NCBI RefSeq assembly: GCF_900103365.1
Contig: NZ_LT629703.1
Location: 4,526,001-4,590,000, forward strand
DNA from: Afipia sp. GAS231
GTDB lineage: Bacteria; Pseudomonadota; Alphaproteobacteria; Rhizobiales; Xanthobacteraceae
DNA length: 64,000 bases
Direction of reading: 5' to 3'
Shown here: piece after piece, positions 9,459 through 61,916 of the stretch
Position numbering within the stretch: position 1 is the stretch's first letter
How the letters are laid out: every line of letters begins with the position of its first letter
The notes under the pieces: generated by a model
What the model was told of the DNA's origin: nothing
What the model saw: the letters and a program-made list of their open reading frames with translations, nothing else
The model's database searches: none
Translations under genes and position numbers: made by a program

Positions 9459-9482
9459 ATACTTAAACATTTTAAGTGTAAA
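9459..9482 (+). promoter_or_regulatory. Operator of the aminobenzoyl-CoA operon (site 1 of a shared motif)
   Basis: The inverted repeat ACTTAAA, CAT, TTTAAGT is perfect and runs into TTTAAGTGTAAAGG, which holds two direct TWAAGY-like hexamers 7 bp apart. The same direct repeat is seen at six other promoters in the window. It lies 62 bases before the start codon of the ring hydroxylase. The spacing to a -35 is not clear here. Confidence 0.6.
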
Positions 9483-9543
9483 GGAAGTTTTCGAGTGCAT
9501 CAGATGGCCACAAGCAATTGGCCGATGTTCGTGAGGGGCGCGC

Positions 9544-11898
9544 ATGAAGATAGTCTGCATTGGGGGCGGCCCCGCCGGCCTATACTTCGGGCTGCTCATG
9601 AAGAAGCTTCATCCGTCGCATGACGTGACAGTGGTTGAGCGCAACAAGCCCTACGACACCTTTGGTTGGGGCGTCGTGTTCTCGGATGCGACCATGGAAA
9701 ACATGGAGCGCTGGGACCCCGAGACCTGCGGAGAAATCCGCCAGTCCTTCAGTCACTGGGATGATATCGACCTGTTGTTCAAGGGCGGGCGTATTCGTTC
9801 CGGTGGGCACGGCTTTGTGGGAATCGGCCGCAAGAAGCTGCTTAACATTCTGCAGGCCCGTTGCGAGCGGCTGGGCGTGAAGCTCGTTTTCGAATGCGAA
9901 GCCGGCTCAGACGAAGATTATTCTGACGCGGACCTTGTGATTGCCAGCGACGGCATCAATTCGAGAATCCGGGAAAAATACGCGGCCACCTTCAAGCCGG
10001 ATATCGTCGTGCGTCCTAATCGCTTCATCTGGCTTGGAACACACAAGTTGTATGACGCATTCACGTTCGACTTCCAGCGCACCGAACACGGCTGGTTCCA
10101 GGCCCACATCTACAAATTCGACAAGGAAACCTCGACGTTCATTGTCGAGTGTCCGGAACACGTCTGGCTTGCCCATGGTTTGGATAAGGCCGACCAGGAT
10201 CAGTCGATCGCCTTTTGCGAGAAGCTGTTTGCGGACAATCTCGAGGGCGCCAAGCTGATGAGCAATGCGCCCCATCTTCGTGGATCGGCCTGGTTGAATT
10301 TCCAGCGGGTCGTTTGCGAACAATGGTGGCTGAAAAACCGCAATGGCAGCCATGTGGTGCTCATGGGCGACGCTGTCCACACTGCGCACTTCGCCATTGG
10401 TTCGGGCACCAAGCTTGCAATCGAGGATGCGATTGAGCTGGCCCGCCAGTTCAAAATTCATGGCGACAAGCCCGAGAATATTCCGGGCGTTCTCGCGCAG
10501 TATCAGGAAGCCCGTCGCATCGAGACGCTCAGGCTGCAGAACGCGGCCTGGAATGCGATGGAATGGTTCGAGGTTTGCGGGGAACGCTATTGCGACCAGC
10601 TTGAGCCCGAGCAATTCATGTACTCAATGCTGACCCGCAGCCAGCGGATCAGTCACGAGAATTTGCGACTGCGTGACAAGGGGTGGCTTGAGGGGTACGA
10701 GAAATGGTTCGCGGCGCGCACTCCGTTGGAGCGGGCGCCATCGCTGCGTGCTCTGCCGCCGATGTTCACGCCCTTCAAGCTGCGTTCGGTGACACTGAAG
10801 AACCGGGTCGTCGTCTCCCCGATGGCGCAATATTCCGCCGTCGATGGCATTCCCGGTGACTATCACCTGGTGCATCTGGGCGCCCGAGCGATGGGCGGCG
10901 CCGGCATGGTGGTCGCCGAAATGACCTGCCCAAGCCCGGAAGCGCGCATTACGCCCGGCTGCCCCGGCCTGTGGAACGACGAGCAGATGCAGGCCTGGAA
11001 GCGCATCGTGGACTGGGTGCACGGCATTTCTGATGCGAAGATCGCTATGCAGATCGGGCATTCCGGCGCCAAGGGTTCGACCCGCCGCCCATGGGACGGC
11101 ATCGATAAGCCGTTGCCCGAAAGCGGTGGCGAACCGAACTGGCCGCTCGTCAGTGCCTCTCCGCAGCAATACCTCGAAGGCGAAAGCCAGTTATCGCGCG
11201 CCATGACGCGGGACGAGATGGATCGCGTCCGCGACGAATTTGTCGTCGCGACGCGCCGCGCCGGACAGGCCGGGTTTGACTGGCTCGAACTGCACTGCGC
11301 GCACGGCTATCTGCTCTCGAGTTTCATTTCCCCGCTGACCAATCACCGTGACGACGAATATGGCGGCTCGCTGCAGAACCGGCTGCGTTACCCGCTGGAA
11401 GTGTTCCGCGCGGTACGCGCCGCATGGCCGGAACATCTGCCAATGTCGGTGCGAATTTCCGCCCATGACTGGGTGGAAGGCGGCATCACGCCGGCGGACG
11501 CGGTTGAAATCGCCAAGGCATTCAAGGCGGCGGGGGCGGATCTGATCGACTGCTCGTCAGGCCAGGTCAGCAAGAAGGAAAAGATTACGTTCGGACGCAT
11601 GTTCCAGACTCCCTTCGCCGACCGGGTGCGGCAGGAGGCCGGAATTGCGACGATCGCGGTCGGGGCGATCAGCGAAGCTGATCATGTGAACTCCATCATC
11701 GCGGCCGGCCGCGCCGACCTGTGCGCCGTTGCGCGACCGCATCTGGCCAATCCGGCATGGACGCTGACCGAATCTGCGAAGATTGGCTTCACGGAAGTGA
11801 GTTGGCCCCAACAATACCGCTCGGCGAAGGTCCAGATGGAGGCAAACTTCGCCCGCGAGAAGGCGATGGCTGCACTGCCTGTGCCCGAAAAGCTCTGA
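9544..11898 (+). CDS. 2-aminobenzoyl-CoA monooxygenase/reductase (or salicylyl-CoA 5-hydroxylase/oxidoreductase)
   Basis: Two-domain flavoenzyme (784 aa) that hydroxylates and reduces the ring of an aryl-CoA thioester, giving a non-aromatic product that beta-oxidation-like enzymes can open. Residues 1 to about 395 form an FAD aromatic hydroxylase ([10 protein letters not shown] near the N-terminus, [14 protein letters not shown] later). From about residue 408 an old-yellow-enzyme (OYE) domain follows ([20 protein letters not shown]; catalytic-pocket [19 protein letters not shown]). This fusion is characteristic of the anthranilate (2-aminobenzoate) CoA pathway known from Azoarcus evansii (abmA-like). 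It is the first gene of an operon running to 19.2 kb and lies behind a putative operator. 2-Aminobenzoyl-CoA is favoured over salicylyl-CoA because of the RidA module downstream. Confidence 0.88.
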
Positions 11899-11903
11899 CG
11901 TCG

Positions 11904-12686
11904 ATGGTCGACGGTATCGTTTCATCCCTTGCCGGCCGACGTGCGGTTGTGACCGGCGCCGCTCGCGGCATCGGTGCGGCGATCGCGCGGCGTCTAGCCG
12001 CGGATGGCGCGCACCTCACGCTGCTCGGACGGCAGGAAGGGCCCCTGCAGGAGCTTGCCGCCGAACTTCCTGCTTCCGCTGAGCCGCAAGTGATCGTCTG
12101 CGACGTCGCTGATCCGGCGGTGGTTAAGCTGGCGTTCGGAAAGATCTCGGGCGGCACCGCGCACATCCTGATCAACAACGCGGGGCAGGCGGCGAGTGCG
12201 CCGTTTGGCCGGACCAGTGACGAATTGTGGCAGCGGATGCTCGCGGTCAACCTGACCGGTACATTTCTATGCGCGCGCGCGGCGCTGCCGGGAATGCTTG
12301 CGGCCCGGTGGGGCCGCATCGTGAATATCTCCAGCACGGCAGGCCAGCGCGGTTACGCCTATGTCAGCGCCTACGCGGCGGCTAAACACGGTGTCATTGG
12401 CTTGACCCGCTCGCTGGCGCTGGAAGCTGCCTCCAAGGGCATTACCGTCAACGCGGTGTGCCCGGGGTACACAGAAACCGACCTGTTGCGCGAGAGTATA
12501 GATAATGTCGTCGCCAAGACCGGGCGCGGTGCCGAAGAAGCGCGCGCCGAATTCGCGCGGCACAATCCACAGGAACGGATCATCCAGCCCGAAGAAGTCG
12601 CCAGCACCGTAGCCTGGCTGTGCAGTTCCGGTGCGAGCGCCATCAATGGCCAGTCGATCTCCGTCAGTGGCGGCGAGGTAATGTGA
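11904..12686 (+). CDS. Short-chain dehydrogenase, probable 3-hydroxyacyl-CoA dehydrogenase step
   Basis: NAD(P)-dependent SDR of 260 aa. The cofactor loop [13 protein letters not shown], the NNAG motif, and the catalytic S...YxxxK set (ISSTAG then YAAAK) are all present, so it should be active. The ATG at 11904 is 6 bases after the upstream stop; a longer upstream frame overlaps the hydroxylase gene and is rejected. In this operon it most likely oxidises the 3-hydroxyacyl-CoA intermediate of the ring-cleavage sequence. Confidence 0.85.
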
Positions 12687-12687
12687 G

Positions 12688-13272
12688 ATGGAAAAGCCGC
12701 CTAAATTGAAGTTGGCGGATGCGCTGGACGAAAACAGCATCGGGCGCGAGGCCCGCGCGCAGTCGACTGACCATGGTGTGGTTAAGTTATGGTTGCGGCT
12801 GCTCTCATGCAGCACCCAAATCGAGCAGGAAATACGTAGCCGCCTGCGTAAGCGCTTCGAGACAACCTTGCCTCGCTTCGATTATCTTGCCCAGCTCGAG
12901 CGCTACCCCGAAGGCCTGCGGATGAGCGCGCTTTCGCGATACCTGATGGTGACCGGCGGTAATGTAACGGGCCTTACCGATCAATTGGTGGCCGATGGCT
13001 GGGTCGAGCGGGCGTCTGATAGCTTCGACCGCCGTTCGATGATCGTCAAGCTCACCGTCGCCGGCCGCAAGCAATTCCTGCTGATGGCCGAAGCGCATGA
13101 GGCCTGGCTGGTGGAAATGCTCGACGGCCTCGGCATCGACCAAAGGGACGCGCTCCACGAGCTCCTTGGTCAGTTTCGAGTTCATCTGTCCCGAAAGGAA
13201 ATCGACGCTCCCAGTGAGAGATCGAGCAGTCCAGGCAAGCCCCGCCGGAACAATCGCAAGGAAATTCGATGA
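12688..13272 (+). CDS. MarR-family regulator inside the aminobenzoyl-CoA operon
   Basis: Winged-helix MarR regulator (194 aa). The DNA-binding core is visible at [20 protein letters not shown] (recognition helix region) followed by the wing with [10 protein letters not shown]. Regulators at this position in aryl-CoA operons usually repress the operon and release DNA on binding an aryl-CoA; that is family knowledge, not shown here. It is closely related in the core to the MarR at 40971. Its gene starts 1 base after the SDR stop and overlaps the next gene in ATGA, so it is made with the enzymes. The basic C-terminal tail ([11 protein letters not shown]) is unusual. Confidence 0.88.
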
Positions 13273-14120
13273 CCTCGCATCTCGATCCCGCGTTGGTGGA
13301 AGGTAATCGCCGCCAGTTCAACGGCTATCGAGCCGTGAATTTCCGCTGGCAGGTGGAAGGCGGCGTTGCCACCATCGCCCTCAACCGTCCTGAGCGCAAG
13401 AACCCTCTCACCTTTGCGAGCTACGCGGAGCTGCGTGATCTGTTTCGTCTGCTTGCCTATGCAACCGACGTGCACGCCGTCGTGATTGCGGGGGCCGGCG
13501 ACAATTTCTGCTCTGGCGGCGATGTGCACGAGATCATTGGCCCCTTGGTGCAGCTTAGTGCGCCGGATCTGCTGACGTTCACACGCATGACCGGCGATCT
13601 CGTGCTTGCGATGCGCCGCTGTCCGCAGCCCATCGTGGCGGCGGTCGATGGCGTATGCGCCGGTGCCGGCGCGATTGTCGCGATGGCGAGCGATCTGCGT
13701 CTGGGCACGGCGCGAAGCAAGGTCGCCTTTCTGTTCAATCGGGTGGGCCTGGCGGGCTGCGACATGGGAGCCTGCGCGATTCTGCCGCGGATCATTGGTC
13801 AAGGTCGTGCCAGCGAACTGCTCTACAGCGGTCGCTCACTGGGTGGCGAGGAGGGGGAACGCTGGGGCTTCTTCAACCGACTTGTGACGCCGGAGAATCT
13901 TCTGACGGAGGCAGCGAGCCTGGCCCGTGATTTCGCGGCCGGTCCCACCTTTGCCAACGGGATCACCAAGACCATGCTGCACCAGGAATGGTCCATGACG
14001 ATCGAGCAATCGATCGAGGCTGAAGCGCAGGCGCAGGCGCTGTGCATGCTCACCCAGGACTTCAAGCGGGCTTATGAGGCTTTCGTCGATCGTCGCAAGC
14101 CGGCATTCGAAGGCAATTGA
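13269..14120 (+). CDS. Enoyl-CoA hydratase/isomerase-family protein
   Basis: Crotonase-fold enzyme (283 aa) expected to hydrate or open the alicyclic enoyl-CoA made by the upstream flavoenzyme. Seen: the N-terminal strand [14 protein letters not shown], the first oxyanion-hole segment [13 protein letters not shown] and the second, [20 protein letters not shown]. The start overlaps the MarR stop (ATGA). It sits 12 bases before the acyl-CoA dehydrogenase gene. The exact reaction within the anthranilate pathway cannot be fixed from sequence. Confidence 0.85.
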
Positions 14121-14132
14121 GAGGGACATGAC

Positions 14133-15308
14133 ATGACCGATACAAGCTATCTGGACTGGCCATTTTTTGAGCCGCGTCACCGTGAATTGGCGTTGACGCT
14201 GGATGCATGGGCCAAACGCTTAGTGTCGCAACACCATGGCCATGACATCGATGCCGAATGCCGAGCGCTGGTGCGTGCTCTGGGGGCGGACGGCTGGCTG
14301 AGCAATGCCGTCGGCGGTCGCGAATGGGGCGGCGCCACGGATGCCATCGATACGCGCGCGATCTGTCTGATCCGCGAGACGCTGGCGCGCCATTCGGGCC
14401 TCGCCGACTTTGCATTTGCCATGCAGGGTCTGGGTTCCGGCGCGATCAGTCTGGCCGGCACCGACAAGCAGAAAGCACGCTACCTGACGCGCGTTGCGCG
14501 CGGTGAAGCGATCGCGGCATTTGCTCTCTCGGAGGCTGCGGCCGGTTCGGACGTCGCCGCCATGAGTTGCGCCGCAAGGGCCGACGGCAGCGACTACGTG
14601 CTCGATGGCGAGAAGACCTGGATATCGAATGGTGGTATCGCCGATTTCTACGTTGTTTTCGCGCGCACCGGCGAGGCGCCAGGGGCGAGGGGTATCAGCG
14701 CCTTCATCGTTGATGCCGACACGCCGGGATTCGAGATCGCCGAGCGTATCAATGTCATCGCGCCGCATCCGCTGGCGCGCTTGCGATTTACCAATTGCCG
14801 CGTGAGCGAGACGCAGCGCGTGGGTGCACCGGGCGAAGGATTCAAGGTGGCGATGCGCACGCTCGACGTGTTCCGCACGTCGGTTGCGGCGGCTGCTGTT
14901 GGGTTCGCGCGTCGCGCATTGGCCGAGGGGTTCGCGCGGGCCACGAGCCGCAAGATGTTCAATGGCGTGCTATCCGATTTCCAGCTCACTCAGGCCAAGT
15001 TGGCGCAGATGGCGACTACGATCGATAGCGCCGCCCTTCTGACCTATCGCGCTGCCTGGCAGCGCGACCAGGGCCGCAATGTCACCAAGGAAGCGGCGAT
15101 GGCTAAGATGGTGGCTACTGAGGGTGCGCAGCAGGTTATTGACGCCGCGGTGCAGCTCTGGGGCGGCCTGGGCGTGGTTTCCGAAATGCCCGTCGAACGT
15201 TTGTACCGCGAGATCCGCGCGCTGCGGATCTATGAGGGCGCCACCGAAGTACAGCAGCTGATCATCGCGCGCGAGTTGTTGCGCAGCGTCAGTCAAAGTC
15301 CCGGCTAG
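14133..15308 (+). CDS. Acyl-CoA dehydrogenase of the aminobenzoyl-CoA pathway
   Basis: FAD-dependent acyl-CoA dehydrogenase (391 aa). The signature [17 protein letters not shown] (FAD and substrate contacts) and the C-terminal [16 protein letters not shown] with the catalytic-base glutamate are present. It most likely oxidises an alicyclic or linear acyl-CoA intermediate between ring reduction and thiolysis. Normal length, no gaps. The next gene starts 115 bases downstream. Confidence 0.87.
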
Positions 15309-15423
15309 TGGTTCCGATTGAATCAGAATCGACGCTCTCTAGTTTGAAGTGTCTTCCTGGCGCGAACCGGCATCCACTTCGCTTGGAAATGCTCTGGATC
15401 GAACTGCCGTAACGAGGTCTTTC

Positions 15424-17034
15424 ATGCCCAGTGCCCACATAGACACCTTCGCTCGCGACAGGTTGCCTGCCCCGGAACTGCAGCCGGAGTTCCTGTTCGA
15501 ATTGCCGGAGCTGACGTTTCCGGAGCGGATGAATTGTGCGACCGAGCTTCTCGACCGCCATGTTATCGAAGGACGCGGGGAACGCGTCTGCATCCGCGCG
15601 CCCGGTCTGACCTGGACTTATAGTGACTTGAAGGACAAGGCTGATCGTATCGCGCATGTGCTGGTCAATGAGATGGGTCTCATTCCGGGCAATCGCGTGC
15701 TGTTGCGCGCGCCCAACAATCCGATGCTCGCGGCTTGCTGGTTTGCTGTAATCAAGGCCGGCGGCATTGCGGTGGCAACCATGCCGTTGCTGCGCGCCAA
15801 GGAATTGAAGGCTATCATCGACATCGGTCAGGTCAGTCACGCGCTGTGTGACGCCAGCCTGGCGGACGACATGCGTGAAGCTTCGCAGGCTTGTCCGGAC
15901 ATGCGCTGGATGCGTCACTTCAACTATGATGGCCCGGATAGCCTCGAGCACGCCATGGAGCGCTTTTCCCCCCCGTTCGAGAACGTCGACACCGCCTCGG
16001 ACGACATCTGCTTGCTGGGCTTTACGTCGGGAACCACAGGCGTGCCGAAGGCAACGATGCATTTCCATCGGGATATTATGGCAAGCTGCCGCTGCTGGCC
16101 GCCGCACGTGTTGCGCGCGATGCCTGACGACGTGTTCATTGGCAGCCCGCCCCTGGCATTTACCTTCGGCCTGGGTGGCATGCTGCTTTTCCCGATGTCG
16201 ATTGGCGCCTCGACGGTATTGCTCGAAAAGTGCAGCCCTCCGCAATTGCTCGACGCTATCAAGGAATTTGGCGCCACCGTGCTATTCACGGCGCCGACAT
16301 CGTACCGGACCTTGGCGGCACGCGGTGTGGAGCTGCGCAGGACGCCGCTGCGCAAATGCGTCTCGGCCGGCGAGGCGTTGCCGGCATCGACGCGGGCGTT
16401 GTGGAAGGAGGCGACCGGAATCGAATTGATCGACGGCATCGGCGCGACCGAGATGCTGCACATCTTCATTTCAGCTGACGAGGCGAACGCACGGCCTGGC
16501 GCCACGGGACTTCCCGTGCCCGGCTATCGGGCCGAAGTGGTTGACGACAACGATCACGAAGTGCCGCCCGGCGTGGTTGGAAAGTTGCGCGTAAAGGGAC
16601 CGACCGGCTGCCGCTATCTCGCTGACGATCGCCAGAAGAGCTATGTTCGGAATGGATGGAACTACACGGGAGACGCCTATATGCGCGACGCCGACGGCTA
16701 TTTCTACTACCACGCGCGCACCGACGACATGATCATTTCGGCTGGATACAACATTGCTAGCCCTGAGATCGAGGACGCCTTGATGCTGCATCCGGCGGTG
16801 GCCGAATGTGGTGTGATTGGCGAGCCGGATGAAGAACGCGGTCAAATCGTCAAGGCCTTTGTCGTCCTGAGGCCCGGCCATGTTGCCGACGAAACGATGG
16901 TCAAAACGCTGCAGGATTTCGTCAAGAAGACCGTGGCGCCCTATAAATATCCGCGCGCGGTGGCCTTCATCGAGAAGCTGCCAAGAACGCAGACGGGGAA
17001 GCTGCAGCGGTTCAAGCTGCACGATTTTCACTAG
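15424..17034 (+). CDS. Aryl-CoA ligase (2-aminobenzoate/benzoate-CoA ligase family)
   Basis: AMP-forming acid-CoA ligase (536 aa) that activates the aromatic acid, the entry reaction of the pathway. Motifs: phosphate loop FTSGTTGVPKATMHFH, the GIGATEMLHIF segment of the benzoate-CoA ligase group, the TGDAYMRDADGYF hinge, and the catalytic lysine in PRTQTGKLQRF. The start at 15424 (MPSAHIDTF) follows AACGAGG; an in-frame ATG 75 bases upstream lacks a ribosome site and family similarity. Together with the ring hydroxylase it points to 2-aminobenzoate as substrate (abmG-like). Confidence 0.88.
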   Translation: MPSAHIDTFARDRLPAPELQPEFLFELPELTFPERMNCATELLDRHVIEGRGERVCIRAPGLTWTYSDLKDKADRIAHVLVNEMGLIPGNRVLLRAPNNPMLAACWFAVIKAGGIAVATMPLLRAKELKAIIDIGQVSHALCDASLADDMREASQACPDMRWMRHFNYDGPDSLEHAMERFSPPFENVDTASDDICLLGFTSGTTGVPKATMHFHRDIMASCRCWPPHVLRAMPDDVFIGSPPLAFTFGLGGMLLFPMSIGASTVLLEKCSPPQLLDAIKEFGATVLFTAPTSYRTLAARGVELRRTPLRKCVSAGEALPASTRALWKEATGIELIDGIGATEMLHIFISADEANARPGATGLPVPGYRAEVVDDNDHEVPPGVVGKLRVKGPTGCRYLADDRQKSYVRNGWNYTGDAYMRDADGYFYYHARTDDMIISAGYNIASPEIEDALMLHPAVAECGVIGEPDEERGQIVKAFVVLRPGHVADETMVKTLQDFVKKTVAPYKYPRAVAFIEKLPRTQTGKLQRFKLHDFH

Positions 17035-17090
17035 CCCTATCGGCAATACCGGTGACCCCGACCTTCGCACCCACTTTGTCGGAGCCTGAC

Positions 17091-17957
17091 GTGGCAAACG
17101 AACCTATCCGGCGTTCACGTTTTGAAAGAACGATGCGTATTCGCTTCAGCGACTGCGACCCGTCCGGCATCGTGTTTTTTCCGCAGTATTTCGTCCGCTT
17201 GAACGGTCTGGTCGAGGATTGGATCACGGATGGTCTCGGTATTTCCTATGCCGACCTGATTGGCAGCCGCCGCATCGGCATGCCAACCGTGAGCTTGCAG
17301 ACCGACTTTCGCGCCATCAGTCGCTTGGGCGACGTCGTCTCTTTCGGTCTCCAAGTGGAAAAAATCGGGACACGCTCCCTGGTGCTTTTGCTGTATTGTA
17401 GATCTGGTGGCGAGGAGCGTCTCCGGGCGCGCCAAGTCATCGTCACAACAAGCCTTCAAACGCACTGGGCCACGCCAATCCCGCCGGACCTTCGCGTCGC
17501 CATTGAACGCTTCTGCGATGCTTGCTCATCGCAAATAACCACTGGATCAACAAGGAAATCAGCGATGCATACATTGTTGCCACAAGGCTGGAAGCGTCCA
17601 AAGGGTTACGCCAATGGTGTCTCGGTCACCGGCCGGCAGATCTTCGTGTCGGGTATGATTGGCTGGGACGCCAACGAGGTATTCCACACCGACGATTTCG
17701 CAGGGCAGGCGCGGCAAGCCCTGCAGAACATCGTGGCCGTGCTCGGCGCAGGCGACGCAAAGCCTGCGCACATCTCGCGCATGACCTGGTACGTAATGGA
17801 CAAACGGGAATACCTGACTGCGTTGCCTTCCATCGGCGCGGCGTTTCGCGAAATTATCGGCAGTTATGACATCGCCATGACGGCGGTTCAGGTCAGCGCG
17901 TTGATGGACGACCGCGCGAGAGTTGAAATCGAAGTCACTGCCGTCGTGCCTGAATGA
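17091..17957 (+). CDS. Fused acyl-CoA thioesterase (4HBT hot-dog) and RidA enamine deaminase
   Basis: A single 288-aa reading frame carrying two normally separate proteins. The first part (about residues 1-150) is a 4-hydroxybenzoyl-CoA-thioesterase-type hot-dog domain (MRIRFSDCDPSGIVFFPQYF, with the catalytic aspartate in that loop). The second (about 160-288) is a RidA domain (MHTLLPQGWKRPKGYANGVS, VSGMIGWD, and the arginine region near the end). RidA proteins hydrolyse enamine/imine intermediates, which fits release of the amino nitrogen of ring-reduced 2-aminobenzoyl-CoA. An ATG at 17565 with AAGGAAA before it could let the RidA part also be made alone. The GTG start at 17091 has GGAG upstream; an earlier GTG at 17052 is less likely. 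Confidence 0.82.
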   Translation: MANEPIRRSRFERTMRIRFSDCDPSGIVFFPQYFVRLNGLVEDWITDGLGISYADLIGSRRIGMPTVSLQTDFRAISRLGDVVSFGLQVEKIGTRSLVLLLYCRSGGEERLRARQVIVTTSLQTHWATPIPPDLRVAIERFCDACSSQITTGSTRKSAMHTLLPQGWKRPKGYANGVSVTGRQIFVSGMIGWDANEVFHTDDFAGQARQALQNIVAVLGAGDAKPAHISRMTWYVMDKREYLTALPSIGAAFREIIGSYDIAMTAVQVSALMDDRARVEIEVTAVVPE

Positions 17958-40881: not shown

Positions 40882-40925
40882 TTGACTTGAGAGCCCGCCT
40901 AAATTACTTAAGGTTCAAAGTATTG
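40882..40925 (+). promoter_or_regulatory. Promoter of the second marR with weak copy of the shared motif
   Basis: TTGACT at 40882, a 17-bp spacer and TACTTA at 40905 form a sigma-70-like promoter. Overlapping it, TACTT and AAGTA flank 8 bases, and on the reverse strand TTGAAC and TTAAGT are 7 bp apart, like the direct repeat at other promoters in the window. This fits MarR autorepression. Confidence 0.5.
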
Positions 40926-44934: not shown

Positions 44935-45146
44935 GGATATTCCCTCTTCATCGCGAACCACTCTTAGAGGAATCGCTGAATTGTTTCTGGCTAAGGACAA
45001 CTTCTCCTTGGCCAGGATGTAGAAACGCTTGCCAAGCAAACTAGTCGCTAAACCGAGCTGGTCGTCCGGCTTAAATTTCCCAAGTCCAAGCGCCGACCTA
45101 AACTCTCGATCGCAGTCTTGAATGCGAGTGACATTAGAAATGCTTT

Positions 45147-45183
45147 ATGCTTTAAAGAAACATTGAGATGCCTATTTGTCAAC
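45147..45183 (-). promoter_or_regulatory. Promoter of the 44-kb hydrolase with shared operator (site 3)
   Basis: On the minus strand TTGACA (45182-45177) is followed by a 17-bp spacer, TTCTTT, and TAAAGC-A-TAAAGC, two direct hexamers 7 bp apart. The 37-bp block aligns without gaps to the one at 54784-54820 (26 of 37 identical), the promoter of the Rieske reductase. Confidence 0.7.
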
Positions 45184-53706: not shown

Positions 53707-54678
53707 CTAGATATCTAAAACAAGAGTTTTGCTTTTACTGCCGGAACAACAGATCATCATCGTCTTGTTCGATGCCTGCTCTTCGGGACTCAGCACCGAA
53801 TCCCGATGGTCCGGGATGCCGTCAATGACCCTGGTTTCGCAGGTTGCGCATACGCCCTGCATGCACGAGTACGGCACGGCGACGCCGTTGGCGAGAAGCG
53901 CGTCGAGAATTGTATTGCCGCTAGAAACCTCGAAGCTCTTGCCACTCCGCTGAAGCACCACGGTGAAGCCGCCTTCCATCGACGGAGCTTCCTTCGCGGT
54001 AAAGTACTCGGTGTGCATCTGCTCTGAGGGGATGCCGGCCGCGACACATGCACCTTCGAACGCCCGCAACATTGGGCTAGGGCCGCAGCAATAGTAATGC
54101 GCATCGAACGGTAGCGTGCCGATTAGCCTGTCCAAGTCCAGCACTTTGCCGCCTGGCAAATGATCAAAGTTGAAATGCACGCGGCCGGGCCTGTAGGCTT
54201 CCAGCGTCTCCAACTTGTTCTTAAACGCGCACGTCTCCGGCACGCGCGTGCTATAGTATAGTTCCCAAGATCCACCGAGCTGCTCTAAGCGCTGTATCAT
54301 CCCGTAGATTGGCGTGATTCCGATGCCGCCGGCGATGAACACGACGTGTTTGGCGCCTTCCACAAGCGGAAAGTTGTTGTGGGGCGTTGTGATCTTTAGC
54401 CGGTCACCCACCCGCAATGTTTCATGGATGAGCTTCGAGCCGCCACGGCCGCGGGCGTCCTTGTTGATTGCGACGACGTAGCGATGTTGCTCGTCCTGGG
54501 AATTGCAGAGCGAATAGCTGCGGACCAGTCCGTTGGAAAGATGCATGTCAATATGCGCTCCAGCGGTAAAAGACGGGAGATCCTCGCCAGAAACTGACCC
54601 AAATTCCCAGACGCTAATGCCCTCCGCCTCGCCGGCTACCTTCTTGACGACGACTTCGAGTTTCGAAGACTCAGTCAT
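53707..54678 (-). CDS. Rieske oxygenase reductase (VanB/phthalate-dioxygenase-reductase type)
   Basis: A 323-aa flavin, NADH and [2Fe-2S] reductase feeding electrons to a class IA Rieske oxygenase. Domains in order: flavin domain (RSYSLCNSQDE), NAD domain (GGIGITPIYGM, YYCCGPSPML) and a C-terminal plant ferredoxin (YSCMQGVCATCETRV with a later CC). It is divergent from the Rieske oxygenase gene at 55008 and almost certainly its partner. Its promoter carries the shared direct-repeat operator. Confidence 0.92.
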   Translation of the reverse strand: MTESSKLEVVVKKVAGEAEGISVWEFGSVSGEDLPSFTAGAHIDMHLSNGLVRSYSLCNSQDEQHRYVVAINKDARGRGGSKLIHETLRVGDRLKITTPHNNFPLVEGAKHVVFIAGGIGITPIYGMIQRLEQLGGSWELYYSTRVPETCAFKNKLETLEAYRPGRVHFNFDHLPGGKVLDLDRLIGTLPFDAHYYCCGPSPMLRAFEGACVAAGIPSEQMHTEYFTAKEAPSMEGGFTVVLQRSGKSFEVSSGNTILDALLANGVAVPYSCMQGVCATCETRVIDGIPDHRDSVLSPEEQASNKTMMICCSGSKSKTLVLDI

Positions 54679-54783
54679 AGCGCCTCAAATGACCCGCGCT
54701 TGCTCGGGTCAGTCTTGATCTGCATGGCCAGTTCCCTCAAAGCTTCTCCCACTTTAAAAAAACGTGACACGGGAAATTGCTTA

Positions 54784-54820
54784 ATGCTTAAAACAAGCAT
54801 CCTCATGTGTCTCTGTCAAC
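54784..54820 (-). promoter_or_regulatory. Promoter of the Rieske reductase with shared operator (site 4)
   Basis: On the minus strand TTGACA (54819-54814), a 17-bp spacer, TTGTTT, then TTAAGC-A-TTAAGC, two identical direct hexamers 7 bp apart. An ATGCTT/AAGCAT inverted repeat overlaps it. Same layout as the promoter at 45147-45183. Confidence 0.72.
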
Positions 54821-54903: not shown

Positions 54904-54944
54904 TTGACACATAACCTTCAAGGTGTTTATATTTTAAGTCTAAA
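54904..54944 (+). promoter_or_regulatory. Promoter of the Rieske oxygenase operon with shared operator (site 5)
   Basis: TTGACA at 54904, a 17-bp spacer, TTATAT at 54927, and immediately TTTAAGTCTAAA (54933-54944), which contains TTAAGT and TAAAGT 7 bp apart. A repressor bound here would block the start region. Confidence 0.75.
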
Positions 54945-55007
54945 GTAAACCGCAGGCGATCTGCATGCGAGAATCTCAATGTTTGTATGCTCCGATGGAG
55001 ATCGATA

Positions 55008-56186
55008 ATGGATGCTCAGCCAAAATCTAACGCCGAGTTTGATCCGCGTATGGCCTTCTACACAGGTCCGGGTACCCTAGGGGGCCGGTACTTGCGGAGC
55101 TTTTGGCAGCCGATTTACGCGGGCAAGCTGGTTAAGCCCGGGCGGGCGCGCCCTGTGCGAGTGCTCGGGGAGGAGTTCACTCTCTATCGCGGCGAAGAAG
55201 GGCAGCCGCACCTTGTTGACCATCGGTGCGCTCATCGCGGCACCCAGCTATCGGCCGGGACCGTGGAGGGTGATGCTATCCGTTGCTTTTATCACGGTTG
55301 GAAGTACGGCGCCGATGGGCAGTGTCTTGAGCAGCCTGGCGAGCTTAAGCCCTTCTGCGATAAGATTCGTATTCGCAGCTTTCCGGTCAAGGAGTATTTG
55401 GGCGTCGTCTTTGCGTATTTTGGTGAAGGCGAGCCGCCGCCGTTCCCAAGATATGAGCGTTTTGAGCGCTGGGATGGTACCCCCAATCTAAGCTTGATGG
55501 CTGAGATTGCGCCCTACAATTTTTTCCAGCGCATCGAAAACTCGCATGATTTTGTGCACCTGCCCTTCGTGCATAAGCAGGCCTTTCCGCCGGTCAAGCC
55601 TACGCTTGACACTATCATTCCGCGGGTCACGACGAGGGAGTGTTCGTGGGGTATGGAGACGCACCGGGTCGACCCGAATGGCTTTGACCTTGTTGCCTAC
55701 TTCGGAATGCCAAACATCAATTATATCTCGATTGGCAAAGGTGCGGGCAAAGAGTGGGAGGGTGGGGGTGAATTGCTTTTCATCCGCGTTCCCGTAGATG
55801 ACCACAGTCACATGCAGTTCATGTGGAACTGGACAGACGGCGACCACAGCGAACTACCGCAGGGCGATCAGCTCGATCTCGTCAACAAGACGCGTAACGA
55901 AATCGCGATGGCTATTCTAAATGGCGATACGACGATGGACGCGGTCATCGCTGCTGGAACGCCTGGCCTGTTCGATATTGAAGATGACGTCGCGCAGTTG
56001 GGTCAGGGTGTCCTCTGGAACCGTGAGGGTGAGCACTTGGGAAGCAGCGACGTATCCTTGGCGCTGATGCGGAGATTGTGGACGAGAGATTTGCGGGCTT
56101 TGTCAGAGGGGCGTCCACGTCACGACTGGCATCGCACGTCTGACATGATTCCTAATGTGGCCGCGCTTCCGAGAGATGCTCGGTGA
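55008..56186 (+). CDS. Rieske non-heme iron oxygenase, alpha subunit (phthalate/PobA-like group)
   Basis: Catalytic subunit (392 aa) of an aromatic-ring or demethylating oxygenase. The Rieske cluster ligands are C74-x-H76 and C93-x2-H96 (CAHRG, CFYHGW). The mononuclear iron site shows D181-x2-H184-x4-H189 (SHDFVHLPFVH). All key residues are present. The single-component alpha-only form with a VanB-type reductase is typical of class IA systems that hydroxylate or demethylate small aromatic acids. The ATG at 55008 follows GGAG. The stop overlaps the next gene (GTGA). Confidence 0.92.
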   Translation: MDAQPKSNAEFDPRMAFYTGPGTLGGRYLRSFWQPIYAGKLVKPGRARPVRVLGEEFTLYRGEEGQPHLVDHRCAHRGTQLSAGTVEGDAIRCFYHGWKYGADGQCLEQPGELKPFCDKIRIRSFPVKEYLGVVFAYFGEGEPPPFPRYERFERWDGTPNLSLMAEIAPYNFFQRIENSHDFVHLPFVHKQAFPPVKPTLDTIIPRVTTRECSWGMETHRVDPNGFDLVAYFGMPNINYISIGKGAGKEWEGGGELLFIRVPVDDHSHMQFMWNWTDGDHSELPQGDQLDLVNKTRNEIAMAILNGDTTMDAVIAAGTPGLFDIEDDVAQLGQGVLWNREGEHLGSSDVSLALMRRLWTRDLRALSEGRPRHDWHRTSDMIPNVAALPRDAR

Positions 56187-57109
56187 AGTTGGGCTGCGTT
56201 AACGCGGAGCGCCCGTCAGTGGGGGCTGTATCGGTCAAGTCCGGCTATGTGATGAACCAAGGGCTTGCGCTGAGCTATCTCGAGTGGGGAGCGCAAGGTG
56301 CGCCTGCCGTGGTGCTTTCGGGTCCTTTCCGGAATGCTGCTTACGAATGGCGTCATACAGCCGAGCTTCTCGAGGACAGGTTTCGCGTTATTGCGGTTAA
56401 TCTTCGCGGACAAGGGGATAGTTCGCCGTTTCCAGTTCGTGAATTTAACCCCGATGGTTACGTCGAAGATCTGAAGGCTGTGGTTGACGAGTTGAACGCG
56501 GCGCCTGCCGTCATTGTGGGCTTTTCGGTCGTTATATCGGGCGTCGCCGTGGCATTCGCGGCAGCGCACCCCGAATTGGTCAAGGGCATTGTGCTTGTAG
56601 ATGGCGGGCTCGGATATTCGCAGGAGCAGGCTGGGGCGGCGGGCGAACGGGCTCGTTCCATGCCGAGCACCTTTCCAGACTGGGACGCTGCGCGGCTTTA
56701 TTTCAGTCGAATGGTTGACCAGTCCTTTGCGTCACCAGAAGACCTCGAAGAGCGCGCTGCCTATACATTCCGACGCCTTCCAGACGGATCGGTGATTTGG
56801 AAGAGCGACCCGGTTCTTCGCGAGTGCTGGCCGGGTGAAGAGTTTGCCCGCAACACAGGCGCTCAACCGGCGCAGGTTTGGGAGCAGGTGCGTTGCCCCA
56901 TCCTCGTCGCCAAAGGTGCATCGAAAAATACGACGCTAAAGGGACGCGAGCATCTGTCCATCGAAGGTTGCGAGCAAATCGCCAAGTACGGAACGGGGAG
57001 CTCCTGGGTTGCGGTTCCAAATGTTACGTCTCACTTCGTCCACGAGGAAAATCCGGCCGGCTTCGTCGGCGTGATCAGGCCGTTTCTCGAGAAGGCTCAT
57101 AGCATCTGA
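56183..57109 (+). CDS. Alpha/beta-hydrolase-fold protein with degenerate elbow (paralogue 1)
   Basis: A 308-aa alpha/beta-hydrolase-fold protein. The nucleophile serine position is kept (S115 in IVGFSVVISG), but the usual glycine two residues later is valine, and the HG oxyanion motif is replaced by SGPFRNAA. The late histidine is present (TSHFVHEENP); no clear acid follows strand 6. Close paralogue of the next gene; they share VKSGYV, AVNLRGQGDS and EENP. The start is GTG overlapping the Rieske stop. Function unknown: hydrolysis, C-C cleavage or a non-hydrolytic role. Confidence 0.83.
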   Translation: MKLGCVNAERPSVGAVSVKSGYVMNQGLALSYLEWGAQGAPAVVLSGPFRNAAYEWRHTAELLEDRFRVIAVNLRGQGDSSPFPVREFNPDGYVEDLKAVVDELNAAPAVIVGFSVVISGVAVAFAAAHPELVKGIVLVDGGLGYSQEQAGAAGERARSMPSTFPDWDAARLYFSRMVDQSFASPEDLEERAAYTFRRLPDGSVIWKSDPVLRECWPGEEFARNTGAQPAQVWEQVRCPILVAKGASKNTTLKGREHLSIEGCEQIAKYGTGSSWVAVPNVTSHFVHEENPAGFVGVIRPFLEKAHSI

Positions 57110-57150
57110 GCGGCTAAAGCGAGCAACGCGCAATTGGAGGCATTACGTCG

Positions 57151-58017
57151 ATGAAGTCGGCTCCCGTCAAATCCGGGTACGTTTTGAACGAAGGTAATCC
57201 ACTTTATTTTCACGAGTGGGGGCAGACTGGGGCGCCGGACGTCTTGTTTCTCGGTCCCTTACGCTCTGCTGCCTATTTCTGGAAGCCAGTCATCGAGCGT
57301 CTTGACGACCGTTTCCATTGTGTGGCGGTCAACTTGCGCGGTCATGGTGACAGCGGCCCCATGCTGCGCCGTAACACCGATGTCAACGACTATGTCAGCG
57401 ACGTGGCAGCTACAATCCGCCAATTGGGACTCGCTCGTCCGACCGTCATTGCGTTCGCGCCGATAATTGCCGGTGCTGGCGTTGCCTTTGCGGCGCAGCA
57501 CGCGGATATGTTAAGTTCCCTGGTTCTAATCGACGGAGGGCCGGGACTTCCACCGCAGAACCTTCCGATGGTCAAGCAGCGAATGTCGGCGATCCCGTCG
57601 GATTTCGCTAGTTGGGGAGACGCGATCTCCTTTTTGCGCCAAGGATTGGCGCCACCGGTTCAGGCTCTGGCCGAAGAGCGCGCTCCATACGTATTCCGTC
57701 GGACGATCGAGGGGCGGATCAACTGGAAATACGATCCGGTTTTGCGAGAAGAGTTCCTTCGTCCGGAGTTGCCGCCCTACGTGGGCGCTCTTCCAGACAG
57801 CGTTTGGGGTAAAGTTCGTTGCCCTATGCTGCTGCTCGTTCCGCAGGGCGGCACCGCTCAGATGACGTTGAGCGACTGCGAGCGCCTTGCAAAATACGGC
57901 GATGGGAGCCGATGGATCGAAGTCCCTAATTGCCAACACTTCATCCAGGAGGAGAATCCGGACGGCTTCAATGAAGCCCTTACGCCGTTTCTCCGGGATG
58001 TCCATGGTCTCGCATAA
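57151..58017 (+). CDS. Alpha/beta-hydrolase-fold protein lacking the catalytic serine (paralogue 2)
   Basis: A 288-aa paralogue of the preceding protein. The nucleophile elbow reads VIAFAPIIAG, so alanine (A103) stands where serine is expected; the HG oxyanion motif is LGPLRSAA and no acid is evident. The histidine is retained (CQHFIQEENP). It cannot work by the normal serine mechanism. It could be a non-hydrolytic enzyme of this fold, or a structural partner of paralogue 1. GGAGG precedes the ATG at a good distance, so it is well translated. Confidence 0.83.
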   Translation: MKSAPVKSGYVLNEGNPLYFHEWGQTGAPDVLFLGPLRSAAYFWKPVIERLDDRFHCVAVNLRGHGDSGPMLRRNTDVNDYVSDVAATIRQLGLARPTVIAFAPIIAGAGVAFAAQHADMLSSLVLIDGGPGLPPQNLPMVKQRMSAIPSDFASWGDAISFLRQGLAPPVQALAEERAPYVFRRTIEGRINWKYDPVLREEFLRPELPPYVGALPDSVWGKVRCPMLLLVPQGGTAQMTLSDCERLAKYGDGSRWIEVPNCQHFIQEENPDGFNEALTPFLRDVHGLA

Positions 58018-58047
58018 GCTTAAAATAGTTGAGAGAAAGAATTCCGC

Positions 58048-58971
58048 GTGATTGAGATCGATAAGGAATCCGCCGGTTGGCGTAAAATTGTTCCTGAGAC
58101 CGGGAGTCCAGAAAAAATCTTGACGGGCTGCGCCAACTTTGCGGATGGCCCCGTCTGGGATGAAGCCGATGGCGCGCTCATTTTCACCGAAGCATGGATG
58201 AATCGGTCACCGGGCAAGATTTGGAAATGGCGGCCCAATCGGGGAGTTGAGTTTGTTTTCGGCCCCTGCAAGGGTCTGGGCGCTACGCTCGATCTTGAGG
58301 GGCGGTTAGTCGTCGCCGGCTGGTCATCGCGTTCGATCTGGCGCCGCGAACACGATGGATCCACGACAGTCCTCGCATCCCATTACGGGGCGTTGCGTAT
58401 CAACTCGCCGAATGACGTTGTCGTGCATTCGAGTGGGGCAATTTATTGGACTGACCCTGCTACTGGACTCAACGGTAACGGTCGTGGTGCTGATCGTACC
58501 GATGATCTTCAGCGTTATCTGCCTTTCGAAAGTGTATTTCGTGTATGGCCAGGCAGTGGACAAGTTGAACCGGTCGCGGACGATTTTGCATTGCCAAATG
58601 GCATCACTTTCTCGCCGGATGAACGGTTGCTGTATGTAAATGATACAATTCGTCAGCACATACGCGTGTTTGACGTCCAGCCAGATGGATCATTGGCGAA
58701 TGGGCGGCTTTTTTACGAAGCTGAGGCCGACCTTCCTGGCACTTTCGACGGTATGAAGGTGGACGTGGAGGGGAATGTTTATTGTACCGCCGCGGGTGGG
58801 ATTCACGTGATCGATCCCGAGGGCAAGCTTCTCGTGCGCATCCGATTTCCGACACCGGTGGGCAATATAGCCTGGGGCGGTCCCGATTGGCGATGGATGT
58901 TCTGTACACTGCAGGAGTCAATCTATCGAATCGAACTAAAGATTCCAGGTGTACCTGTGCGACGTCGGTGA
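58048..58971 (+). CDS. SMP-30/gluconolactonase-family protein 1
   Basis: A 307-aa six-bladed beta-propeller of the SMP-30/LRE family, calcium- or zinc-dependent lactonases. Family elements: CANFADGPVWDEADGALIFT (metal glutamate position varied), NSPNDVVVHSSGAIYWTDP (metal asparagine) and LPNGITFSPDERLLYVND (metal aspartate). The GTG start is 30 bases after the hydrolase. Likely opens a lactone produced downstream of the Rieske reaction. No signal peptide, so cytoplasmic. Confidence 0.85.
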   Translation: MIEIDKESAGWRKIVPETGSPEKILTGCANFADGPVWDEADGALIFTEAWMNRSPGKIWKWRPNRGVEFVFGPCKGLGATLDLEGRLVVAGWSSRSIWRREHDGSTTVLASHYGALRINSPNDVVVHSSGAIYWTDPATGLNGNGRGADRTDDLQRYLPFESVFRVWPGSGQVEPVADDFALPNGITFSPDERLLYVNDTIRQHIRVFDVQPDGSLANGRLFYEAEADLPGTFDGMKVDVEGNVYCTAAGGIHVIDPEGKLLVRIRFPTPVGNIAWGGPDWRWMFCTLQESIYRIELKIPGVPVRRR

Positions 58972-58982
58972 TGGGGGTTAGA

Positions 58983-59837
58983 ATGGCGTGGGTAATTGAA
59001 CGGGTTGCTGGGCCATACTCAGGCGAGGCCGATGGGCCGGTATGGGATGGCGAAGCGCTCTTGTTCTCTTTGGTCACCGAGAGCCGGATACTGCGTTATC
59101 ACCCCGACGCGGGGCGTGTGGTCGAATACCGCAAATATACCAATAATACCCGGGGATTGGCGCTGGCCCCCGAGGGAGGCCTCTTCGGATGTCAAGGTTC
59201 GGCGCGCCGGGTCGGTCGGTTCAATGTTGATGGCACTCTTTCGATGCTTGCCGATCGGCTCGATGGACGCCTTCACAATCAGCCCTACGACTTAGCAGTC
59301 GATCGGACCGGTCGCATCTGGTTTACTGATCCCGAACCTCCGCTTCGCATGATGGAGCCCCCGGTTGATCATGCTTCGGTGCTCCGCCTCGACCATGTCG
59401 GAGGCGGCGCGTGGGTGCTCAAGCGTATGACGCTGGACACTGAGTTTCCGATGGCCATAGCCTTTTCGAAGGATGAGCGGTCGCTTTATGTCGCCGATAA
59501 TCCTAGAGGTGGACGGAAGCTATCAGAGTTGCGAGTGTACCCTCTTCAATCTGACGATACACTTGGGCAGAGCTCCGTCCTCCATTCTTGGGATGGCTTT
59601 GCGGTGACAGGCATGTGCGTCACATCGCGTGGAAATATTGTTGCATGCCTCGATGGCGGAAAAGATGGCGAATCTGCTGCAGTAGTAGTGATGTCTGACA
59701 CGGGGATTATATTAGAGCAGTTTTCATTCGGCCCGAGCAAACCAACCAATTGTGCATTCGGCGGGCCCGGCCTGAAGACACTCTACGTCACTTCGGCCGA
59801 TGGCTGTTTGTACAAGGTGCGGAATTTCAAGCTGTAG
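58983..59837 (+). CDS. SMP-30/gluconolactonase-family protein 2
   Basis: A 284-aa second beta-propeller lactonase-like protein, 11 bases after the first. It has GEADGPVWDGEALLFSLVTE, HNQPYDLAVDRTGRIWFTDP and FPMAIAFSKDERSLYVADN, again the metal-binding strands. It is clearly diverged from protein 1. The ATG at 58983 has GGGGG upstream; a longer frame from 58782 overlaps gene 1 and is rejected. Tandem lactonases suggest two lactone intermediates or two isomers in the pathway. Confidence 0.84.
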   Translation: MAWVIERVAGPYSGEADGPVWDGEALLFSLVTESRILRYHPDAGRVVEYRKYTNNTRGLALAPEGGLFGCQGSARRVGRFNVDGTLSMLADRLDGRLHNQPYDLAVDRTGRIWFTDPEPPLRMMEPPVDHASVLRLDHVGGGAWVLKRMTLDTEFPMAIAFSKDERSLYVADNPRGGRKLSELRVYPLQSDDTLGQSSVLHSWDGFAVTGMCVTSRGNIVACLDGGKDGESAAVVVMSDTGIILEQFSFGPSKPTNCAFGGPGLKTLYVTSADGCLYKVRNFKL

Positions 59838-59976
59838 GAGCGGAGGTGCATCACCAGATTGCGCCTCTCGCTCGATGTAATGACGGAAAGATGTCAGCTC
59901 CGCGACCTTGTCTGACGCTGCGCGGAGATCCTGGGTACGAAAAACGGCGACATCGGTTTCGCGAGGCTAGACGCGC
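59838..59976. other. Gap after the lactonase genes
   Basis: No gene supported. It leads into the promoter of the binding-protein gene. Confidence 0.4.
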
Positions 59977-60017
59977 TTGAGAACTAAGTGATTTGTTGCC
60001 TTAACTCGAAGTATAAA
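59977..60017 (+). promoter_or_regulatory. Promoter of the binding-protein gene with shared operator (site 6)
   Basis: TTGAGA at 59977, a 17-bp spacer, CTTAAC at 60000, then TCGAAGTATAAA (60006-60017). Same architecture as the Rieske oxygenase promoter, with two mismatches in the operator core. Confidence 0.55.
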
Positions 60018-60129
60018 ATTTCTTCAAGGAAGATCATGATCCGGACAGCGGATCGGACTGGCCGGTAGCTTAGCATCTGCGCGCGCAGAGCGCGTATCAT
60101 CAATCTAAACGAGCGGAAGAGAAAGCATC

Positions 60130-61236
60130 ATGTCAAAAGCTTCGTCTATTTCCCGCCGTGGTTTACTAGCGGGCGCTGCGGCGGTGCTTGGCACCGGTTC
60201 CCGTGGTCTAGCTCAGGGCAATTCTGACTGGCAGGCTGGTGCTCCACCGGAGTGGGATCGAGTACTCGCGGCGGCCCGCAGCGAAGGGCAGGTCACTGTC
60301 GCTGCGTTTCCGCTGTTGAGCGAGACGATGAGCGCCGCGTTCAAGCGCGACACAGGAATCCAGCTGAATTTCCTCGGCGGTAATACGGCGGCGCAGTCGG
60401 CACGGCTCGAAGCGGAAGCGCGCGCGAAGAACGTGACTATCGACGTCATGATAGCCGGCGGCCGAGAACTGCATATGATGCGGGAAAATCTGCTGGAGCC
60501 GATCCTGCCGCAGCTAATTCTTCCCGGCGTTGCGCCTCAAAACTTTCATGACGGCAAGCACAAATTCGTGGACGATGCCGGTCAGTATCTTTTGCAAGGA
60601 GCTTCCTACGTCTTTGGTTGGCTAACGGTCAATACCGACATCGTGAAGCCCGGCGAAATCAAGGTATGGCAAGATCTGTTGGACCCAAAGTACCGCGGCA
60701 AGATTGCGGCGTACGATGTCCGATTTCCTGGGCCGGGGCAAGGAGCTGCGACTTGGCTTTACAAGGCGAGAGGCCTTCAGTTCATCAAGGATCTCTACTT
60801 GGGACAACAGGTCAAATTTTCCACTGAAAATCGCTCGTTGATGGAGGGGGTTGTTCGTGGGACGGCGCCGATCCTTCTGGGAGGAGTTCAGATCGAGGTT
60901 GAGCGCTTTCGCGCGAACTTTAAGAATATTGGCGTTGTCCTTCCCGATGATGGGCCCGGCTACCTCACGGGAGGTTACAGTGCTATCAAGCAAGCCAAGG
61001 GTGTACCACACCCGAATGCAGCGAAAGTGTTCACCAACTGGTACATGAGCAAGCCCGGTCAGGAAGTCTATGAATCCATTATGCTTGAGGCCAGCCGGCG
61101 CCTTGACGTTAACACCGGTTTGCCCAGCTATCTCGTGCCAGGTAAGTTCAACTATCTTGATGATTACAACGAAGAATCCTACTTCTCGCGCGAGGTTCTG
61201 GTTAAGAGCATCAACGAGGCACTGGGGCAGCGCTGA
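60130..61236 (+). CDS. Tat-exported extracellular solute-binding protein (AfuA/family 1 type)
   Basis: A 368-aa periplasmic binding protein of an ABC importer, with a twin-arginine signal (SRRGLLAGAAAVLGTG). The mature part has the two-lobe pattern of the iron(III)/thiamine/spermidine-like family (ERVLAAARSEGQ-like start, WQDLLDPKYRGKIA, PNAAKVFTNWYMSKPGQE). No permease or ATPase gene is in the window. In Bradyrhizobium relatives such proteins often accompany aromatic-acid catabolic genes, so it probably binds an aromatic acid or a metal-ligand complex. A decayed second copy lies at 62021. Confidence 0.87.
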   Translation: MSKASSISRRGLLAGAAAVLGTGSRGLAQGNSDWQAGAPPEWDRVLAAARSEGQVTVAAFPLLSETMSAAFKRDTGIQLNFLGGNTAAQSARLEAEARAKNVTIDVMIAGGRELHMMRENLLEPILPQLILPGVAPQNFHDGKHKFVDDAGQYLLQGASYVFGWLTVNTDIVKPGEIKVWQDLLDPKYRGKIAAYDVRFPGPGQGAATWLYKARGLQFIKDLYLGQQVKFSTENRSLMEGVVRGTAPILLGGVQIEVERFRANFKNIGVVLPDDGPGYLTGGYSAIKQAKGVPHPNAAKVFTNWYMSKPGQEVYESIMLEASRRLDVNTGLPSYLVPGKFNYLDDYNEESYFSREVLVKSINEALGQR

Positions 61237-61875
61237 GGGTTGACGCGGCTAAGAATTTTCTTGAAGCGTCGGTGACGCCTTATTTGACGCTATTGTGCGG
61301 AACGTCGGGAGCGGCCAGCGCAGGTGCAGGTGTCTATTTGCGCAACGGGCCTGTTTTCATACGAGCAACGCGAATGTGAGATGGATCCGAGAATGGTGGC
61401 CAGGAGCTTTCACGACGCCAGGCCACTAAACAGGCACTTAATGGTAGGAAGACGAACGCCGGAATGAGCTAGAGCGCGCCAGAAGTATGGACCGTGCGTC
61501 TATTATGATCTGCGAACTCAGCTGCGGGTCGTCGTTTGCTCGCGATCAAGAAAACTAGGCGTTAACGCGATCGCAGGGACGAGTCGACGTCAAGCAAGCA
61601 AAACGCTCTCGCTTCAGTTTGCTTTAGAGGTTCTCGACCGTAATCTGCACTGTTGCGTCCAGGCTTGACCCTATGAAGCGACCTTGGATCGATCGCGCTC
61701 AATGGAGCTTTCATAAAATATCGCGATTAGGCGTTCCAACTGAGTCTGCAGCATGGGCGCAAGCGGCTCTTCGGCCTGAGCATAGACAGTCCATTCGCCT
61801 TGGGCTTTGGGCGTCTAGCCCATTCCGCCGCTGTCCCCCATCGCCGACCAATTTACGGTTCCTACGCTAAAACAT
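61237..61875. other. Gap downstream of the binding-protein gene
   Basis: 640 bases without a recognisable gene. Several short frames have no family signal. Confidence 0.45.
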
Positions 61876-61916
61876 TTGTCCTAGAAGCTTGCATTGCCAA
61901 ATAGTTTAAGTATAAA
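61876..61916 (+). promoter_or_regulatory. Promoter of the decayed binding-protein copy, with shared operator (site 7)
   Basis: TTGTCC at 61876, a 17-bp spacer, AAATAG, then TTTAAGTATAAA (61905-61916). The stretch AAGTATAAAAT also matches the first copy's promoter. It may now drive the TPP-enzyme genes. Confidence 0.6.

Follow-up and report, generated by a model that had tools for sequence, protein, structure and literature searches.

The window analysed here, 64,000 nucleotides (positions 4,526,001 to 4,590,000) of the single 7.58-Mb contig (NZ_LT629703.1) of the Afipia sp. GAS231 genome, holds a conserved MarR-type palindromic operator in front of several catabolic genes. Among them is an operon headed by a gene that we take, from its domain make-up and the content of its operon, to encode a 2-aminobenzoyl-CoA monooxygenase/reductase-like protein (ABM; its NCBIfam family is named bifunctional salicylyl-CoA 5-hydroxylase/oxidoreductase). 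An original prediction, made from the letters of the window, had described the element as TWAAGY repeated 7 bp on, a direct-repeat operator at seven promoters. The element is instead a 20-bp palindrome, approximately WTAnTTnA-N4-TnAAnTAW, and the predicted regulon is larger than had been claimed. With a probability of roughly 0.8, we predict it to be the operator of a group of MarR-family repressors guarding the aerobic anthranilate (2-aminobenzoyl-CoA) pathway.

The matrices behind this result were trained exclusively on promoters of ABM orthologues from other organisms and included no window sequence. The orthologous loci are the best 80 of at least 592 relatives, with proteins 75–84% identical to the window ABM; most are titled Burkholderiales, with some Gemmatimonas, Nocardia and others, and many are metagenome-assembled. 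Two loci in which ABM starts at the locus edge (L093 and L111) were excluded, leaving 78. A de novo search of the upstream regions with palindromic symmetry imposed found a motif in 73 of them, with scores above 13. Among the 62 distinct sites drawn from these 73, all but one fit TTnA-N4-TnAA, a count that is partly the product of selection, as the sites had been chosen with the palindromic matrix. To remove this bias the search was repeated without any symmetry constraint. The same motif emerged in 72 of the 78 regions, with the consensus TTACTTGAGATCTAAACTAT, and its matrix correlated at 0.94 with the in-register reverse complement and at 0.33 with a copy of itself shifted by 7 positions. 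The exact direct repeat is kept in only 1 of the 62 distinct sites, and conserved direct half-sites of the AraC type were not found in the orthologous promoters; we therefore rejected the direct-repeat model. The apparent repeat arises where AAGY occupies the centre of the palindrome and TAAAGY happens to form the right arm. In 48 of the 78 ABM upstream regions (250 bp) the best match to the pattern TTTAAGYNTWAA has one or two mismatches, compared with about 7 for shuffled sequences and 2 for random windows. At the sequence level, the predicted operator near its target promoters agrees with the 16–20 bp palindromes that MarR-family regulators usually bind, according to the accessible part of PMC10458429.

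In the window, the foreign palindromic matrix placed all seven originally predicted sites within its top eight (Table 1), so that the idea of one cis-element linking distant catabolic clusters held up; the matrix without imposed symmetry returned the identical eight. The additional site, at 9452, is a second ABM operator that had previously gone unnamed. At the ABM promoter (9452–9486) the two operators share 5 bp, with their centres 15 bp apart. Thirty first-order Markov simulations gave on average 1.8, 0.63 and 0.1 sites above scores of 10, 12 and 15, respectively, where the window has 8, 7 and 5. The exact sequence TWAAGYNTWAAGY occurs three times (45142 and 54779 on the minus strand, 54934 on the plus strand) versus 0.03 expected, and none of 100 shuffles reached three. 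The sites reported at 9472 and 61906 differ from it by one mismatch and that at 40905 by two, and the one at 60006 is absent from the matches with up to two mismatches. The sequences originally listed are thus present, at coordinates correct to within about 5 bp, but the loose pattern is not enriched in the window (16 matches with up to two mismatches versus 15.3 expected), and the two lowest-scoring sites lie near background.

For a count across whole loci, 44 of the 80 were hand-picked for a full upstream flank and a length of about 22 kb, 982 kb in all. A site scoring above 15 lies directly before ABM in 41 of them, and such sites occur only five times elsewhere, two of these in loci without an ABM site; since the 44 loci overlap the training set, the five sites away from ABM are the informative number. 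Outside the training set, we scanned 20 same-genus genomes, hand-chosen among those with an ABM match, counting sites above a threshold of 11 within 400 bp of a gene start. The operator stands before ABM and MarR in 20 of 20 genomes each, before the CoA ligase in 18 and before the short-chain dehydrogenase/reductase (SDR) in 17; in two genomes MarR and a divergent ABM have one site in common. ABM, its MarR and the CoA ligase thus have the same operator across genomes, and conservation upstream of orthologous operons, on which the original prediction had staked itself, is borne out for these three promoters. Of 146 same-genus genomes sampled, 142 contain an ABM homologue (E <= 1e-100). In GAS231 itself, a second ABM cluster (core ABM at contig position 5903002) carries four operators, before SDR, ABM, MarR and CoA ligase.

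This second cluster lies outside a 240-kb island of low GC content to which the window belongs (4.40–4.64 Mb, limits set by us; GC 0.58 versus 0.62 in the core). Sites scoring above 14 number 15 in the island, six of them in the window and four stemming from one repeated piece, versus one in 400 kb of core sequence sampled at 20 places; the mean of Markov simulations of the island was 0.95. None of 200 column-permuted palindromic matrices reached the observed island count at thresholds from 12 to 20, while 1% did so at 10 and 3% at 8. For the ABM, MarR and ligase promoters, the objection that other DNA might be hit as often does not hold. The regulon first proposed is part of a larger predicted one that adds the second ABM cluster, an ATP-binding cassette (ABC) transporter and island promoters beyond the window. 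The solute-binding protein of the window has four further intact paralogues in the island (4488726, 4516041, 4616317–4617432 on the minus strand, and 4620359; the five are 66–81% identical) and one remnant (4588103), and strong sites precede paralogues at 141 bp (4515852), 55 bp (4617520) and 632 bp (4619718). Further strong island sites lie at a divergent Mo-hydroxylase/ABC permease pair (4594473) and before a gene with weak resemblance to propeller proteins, behind which an aromatic-ring hydroxylase is encoded (4523186); that at 4434955 (score 14.9) is without a clear target. A promoter piece of about 80–300 bp containing the operator recurs at 4423969, 4491281, 4523186 and 4602151 and has apparently spread by duplication within the island. 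In the core, a site scoring 24.1 (4257753; loci L014 and L224) lies between a branched-chain-type binding-protein gene and a LivH-type permease gene.

Both MarR paralogues that the original prediction had singled out as candidate binders gained weight. MarR1 scores 39.9 bits against Pfam MarR_2 (cut-off 27) and MarR2 40.5 bits against MarR (cut-off 24.6). In a tblastn search, the 11 best matches listed for MarR1, at 62–71% identity, all lie in ABM loci of other organisms, MarR1 thereby resembling Burkholderiales MarRs that adjoin ABM, and its distance from the ABM start (3144 bp) is nearly the median of 3145 bp in ABM loci with a MarR match. MarR2 shares 79% identity with the MarR from the core ABM cluster and 44% with MarR1; judged by sequence, it is a relative of the resident regulator. 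An alignment with 14 relatives shows a similar recognition-helix region in both window MarRs, the core MarR and most of the relatives. From these comparisons, MarR1 and MarR2 are likely the best candidate binders. A third island copy (4501683–4502090, minus strand, in L020) has decayed: it contains a stop and its helix region is altered. Its identity is 70% to MarR2 and 63% to the core MarR. The island ABM resembles the 80 kept proteins, mostly titled Burkholderiales, at 75–84% identity, versus about 50% to the core ABM of its own genome, which suggests a Burkholderiales-like source for the island operon with MarR1. Both lineages appear to share one operator, and an acquired ABM operon could for that reason join the resident regulon, which suggests a route by which incoming catabolic genes plug into existing control.

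The position of the operators offers a plausible mechanism. Four of 20 site–promoter pairs (oxygenase, reductase, hydrolase and one binding-protein paralogue) have an exact TTGACA that precedes the operator by 22–25 bp, with the operator covering the −10 region; in the window it lies 23–25 bp before operators 54929, 54777 and 45140. Site 45140, marginal by score, nevertheless has its TTGACA at the same distance as both Rieske promoters. At the other four originally predicted sites the best −35 matches are 5/6. Such an arrangement suggests that repression works by obstructing RNA polymerase: a dimer of MarR1 and/or MarR2 would bind the palindrome and, at the best-defined promoters, where operator and −10 overlap, exclude the polymerase. 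When anthranilate, the pathway substrate, or its CoA ester accumulated, MarR would release the DNA, allowing joint transcription of the ABM operon, the peripheral genes and the MarR gene; the Rieske, hydrolase and binding-protein genes presumably feed the anthranilate node. We infer the repressive action and the ligand from the MarR family and the pathway. The likely logic, in which an aromatic acid or its CoA ester dislodges the repressor, resembles that of CouR, FerC and BadR, MarR regulators of aromatic degradation that respond to CoA thioesters. MarR-type catabolic repressors also agree with it in Pfam family, in palindrome length and in having the MarR gene within the operon under its own site.

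Several observations weigh against this reading. In 23 of the 78 ABM loci no abm-type MarR was matched (E 1e-15), and 20 of these carry the site, although several loci are incomplete; the full tabulation (53 sites with MarR and 20 without, against two and three loci lacking a site) is uninformative for the same reason. The recognition-helix motif deviates in L193, L194, L086 and L119. The original placement of the sites at the −10 of promoters with 17-bp spacing is good at the oxygenase, but the −10 under the operator matches in only 3 of 6 positions at the reductase and the hydrolase; the best promoter guesses at the core MarR and LivH do not overlap the operator, and at the island permease the −35 alone does. 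By itself, 60002 is indistinguishable from chance and 45140 marginal. Finally, the targets other than ABM have nearly no relatives in the sampled genomes, and their sites rest on one genome. The Rieske oxygenase (E 1e-60) matched in 3 of 265 same-genus genomes, its own and two at 40–41%; three Rieske matches at 36–41% (L144, L145 and L035) had no site in the 4-kb loci scanned. For the hydrolase (E 1e-40) and the binding protein (E 1e-60), 1 of 257 same-genus genomes each gave a match, their own, as did 1 of 397 same-order genomes for the binding protein at E 1e-60, and neither the Rieske nor the binding proteins yielded anything useful when sought in plasmids. On the promoters of this one genome, the Rieske genes likely belong to the regulon; we are less sure of the hydrolase and binding-protein genes.

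Three other explanations were considered. It is unlikely, in our estimate, that the operator acts at no promoters but those of the ABM operon and the MarR genes, the remaining strong sites of the island being leftovers of duplicated promoter pieces without control over the Rieske and binding-protein genes. In favour of this, four island sites come from a single repeated piece, a decayed gene follows the 61901 site, and one island MarR copy is decayed; however, the high-scoring operator 54929 overlies a TTGACA-17-TTATAT promoter whose gene is intact and starts 58 bp further on, and two of the four other intact binding-protein paralogues have sites 55 and 141 bp ahead of them. Very improbable is the explanation by composition, under which the sites would be AT-rich promoter DNA that looks alike and serves no regulator. 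The unenriched loose pattern, the overlap of several sites with −10 boxes and the higher AT content of the island speak for it, but the island simulations and the scarcity of sites away from ABM contradict it for the ABM, MarR and ligase promoters; it may apply to 60002 and, less so, to 45140. A direct-repeat operator for the AraC-type protein encoded at 52768–53613, with the MarR proteins irrelevant, is equally implausible: that gene adjoins the Rieske genes and three sites match the 7-bp repeat exactly, but the symmetry-free motif is palindromic and the sites occur genus-wide at ABM and MarR promoters, where AraC genes were not searched for and a single AraC-type gene was met. This gene lies in a core ABM cluster (L176), where an extra site (12049; score 16.8) separates it from a cupin gene; L177–L180 and L183 have an extra site at a similar position, the gene families having been checked in L176 only.

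The MarR operator may extend to auxin degradation. The accessible parts of PMC9613470 describe iad loci, whose pathway ends in anthranilate, as being under the MarR regulators IadR and IadR2 (MarR_50), the second with neither ligand nor DNA site known. From the same-genus genomes in which a MarR lies no more than about 33 kb from a ring-hydroxylase beta subunit we chose six with iad-like gene sets, and scanned 36–40 kb of each. The motif is present in all six genomes (L236 to L247), with four to seven matches above 12 in each. Gene families were checked in one genome alone, G121, where they comprise IorA/IorB-like iadA and iadB, a Rieske alpha subunit, a reductase, a cyclase, a CoA ligase and an acyl-CoA dehydrogenase, with the ring-hydroxylase beta subunit (PF00866) at 6011379–6011780 on the minus strand. 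At this locus one match separates ABM from a divergent MarR, and another stands 47 bp before the iadA-like gene. IadR and IadR2 resemble the present regulators in being MarR proteins of a pathway that leads to anthranilate, and the MarRs of G121 are possible counterparts of IadR2. Both G121 MarRs and one of genome G019 match PDB entry 3boq best, whereas 7kym, the structure of B. japonicum IadR according to the accessible text of PMC11630574, is a weak match (27 bits) or unlisted.

As a tentative generalization, with the odds somewhat against it, a single operator code common to MarRs of different lineages and phyla might mark the anthranilate node as a shared regulon, upstream pathways that end in anthranilate (the iad-like auxin loci, the island Rieske pathway) acquiring the palindrome. 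If so, it would be the missing DNA site of orphan IadR2-type MarRs, with anthranilate or 2-aminobenzoyl-CoA, not auxin, as ligand. The result is a sequence code, tested computationally, by which ABM clusters would be controlled; it predicts targets and a DNA site for the MarRs at iad-like loci. Neither the operator nor its link with ABM was found in the literature covered, subscription journals lying outside its scope; the accessible text of PMC5343134 contains no anthranil- or aminobenzo- term.

Table 1. Predicted operators and relevant genes of the window (positions in the window; PWM, position weight matrix score)
Feature	Position	Strand	Evidence or remark
Operator 1 of ABM promoter (TTGTTTGATACTTAAACATT)	9452..9471	+	PWM 16.1
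Operator 2 of ABM promoter (ACATTTTAAGTGTAAAGGAA), originally given as 9472	9467..9486	+	PWM 17.8; ABM promoters 73/78
MarR2 promoter operator (TTACTTAAGGTTCAAAGTAT), originally a "changed form"	40904..40923	+	PWM 16.2; relatives' MarR promoters 20/20
Hydrolase promoter operator, marginal	45140..45159	-	PWM 12.2; -35 TTGACA 45177-45182 (minus)
Reductase promoter operator	54777..54796	-	PWM 14.5; -35 TTGACA 54814-54819 (minus)
Rieske oxygenase promoter operator	54929..54948	+	PWM 28.6, best of the window; -35 TTGACA 54904-54909, -10 TTATAT 54927-54932
Weak operator-like site before binding protein	60002..60021	+	PWM 10.5
Strong operator before decayed binding-protein copy	61901..61920	+	PWM 27.4
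ABM, 2-aminobenzoyl-CoA monooxygenase/reductase-like	9544..11898	+	FAD_binding_3 + Oxidored_FMN
SDR of ABM operon	11721..12686	+	homology starts near residue 74
MarR1, candidate binder	12688..13272	+	Pfam; tblastn
Enoyl-CoA hydratase, acyl-CoA dehydrogenase, CoA ligase, thioesterase + RidA (rest of ABM operon)	13269..17957	+	Pfam
MarR2, candidate binder	40971..41459	+	Pfam; sequence comparison
Enol-lactonase-like alpha/beta hydrolase	44209..45039	-	
AraC-type protein	52768-53613		beside Rieske genes
Rieske-type reductase (FAD, NAD, Fer2)	53707..54678	-	
Rieske oxygenase, phthalate-dioxygenase / O-demethylase-like	54987..56186	+	
Two alpha/beta hydrolases + two SMP-30/gluconolactonase-like proteins	56183..59837	+	
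ABC solute-binding protein	60130..61236	+	four island paralogues 66-81%
Binding-protein remnant	about 62103-62348		43% over 83 amino acids

Some candidate lines of support were dropped. The 13 exact occurrences of TTTAAGYNTWAA in the genome were rejected as independent evidence: four are copies of the one repeated piece. Another of the 13 (4666147) sits inside an open frame of 681 codons, and the reversed control pattern has 9 genome matches. A reading of the repeated piece as a tts box was likewise abandoned, one copy lying between two divergent genes, of which one leads into an aromatic-ring hydroxylase. A symbiosis island is unsupported, as the search for nifH yielded no more than a match of 36 positions and 27.7 bits, barely above the cut-off; the nodA search returned no match, but its control likewise gave none, so that absence is not established.

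Within the window, the homology of the SDR begins near residue 74, and its true start is therefore probably near 11940. Judging from gene order, the hydrolase and SMP-30-like genes behind the Rieske oxygenase are probably in one transcription unit with it. Behind the decayed binding protein, a thiamine-pyrophosphate enzyme (62288–63489) is split over two open frames and is an apparent pseudogene.

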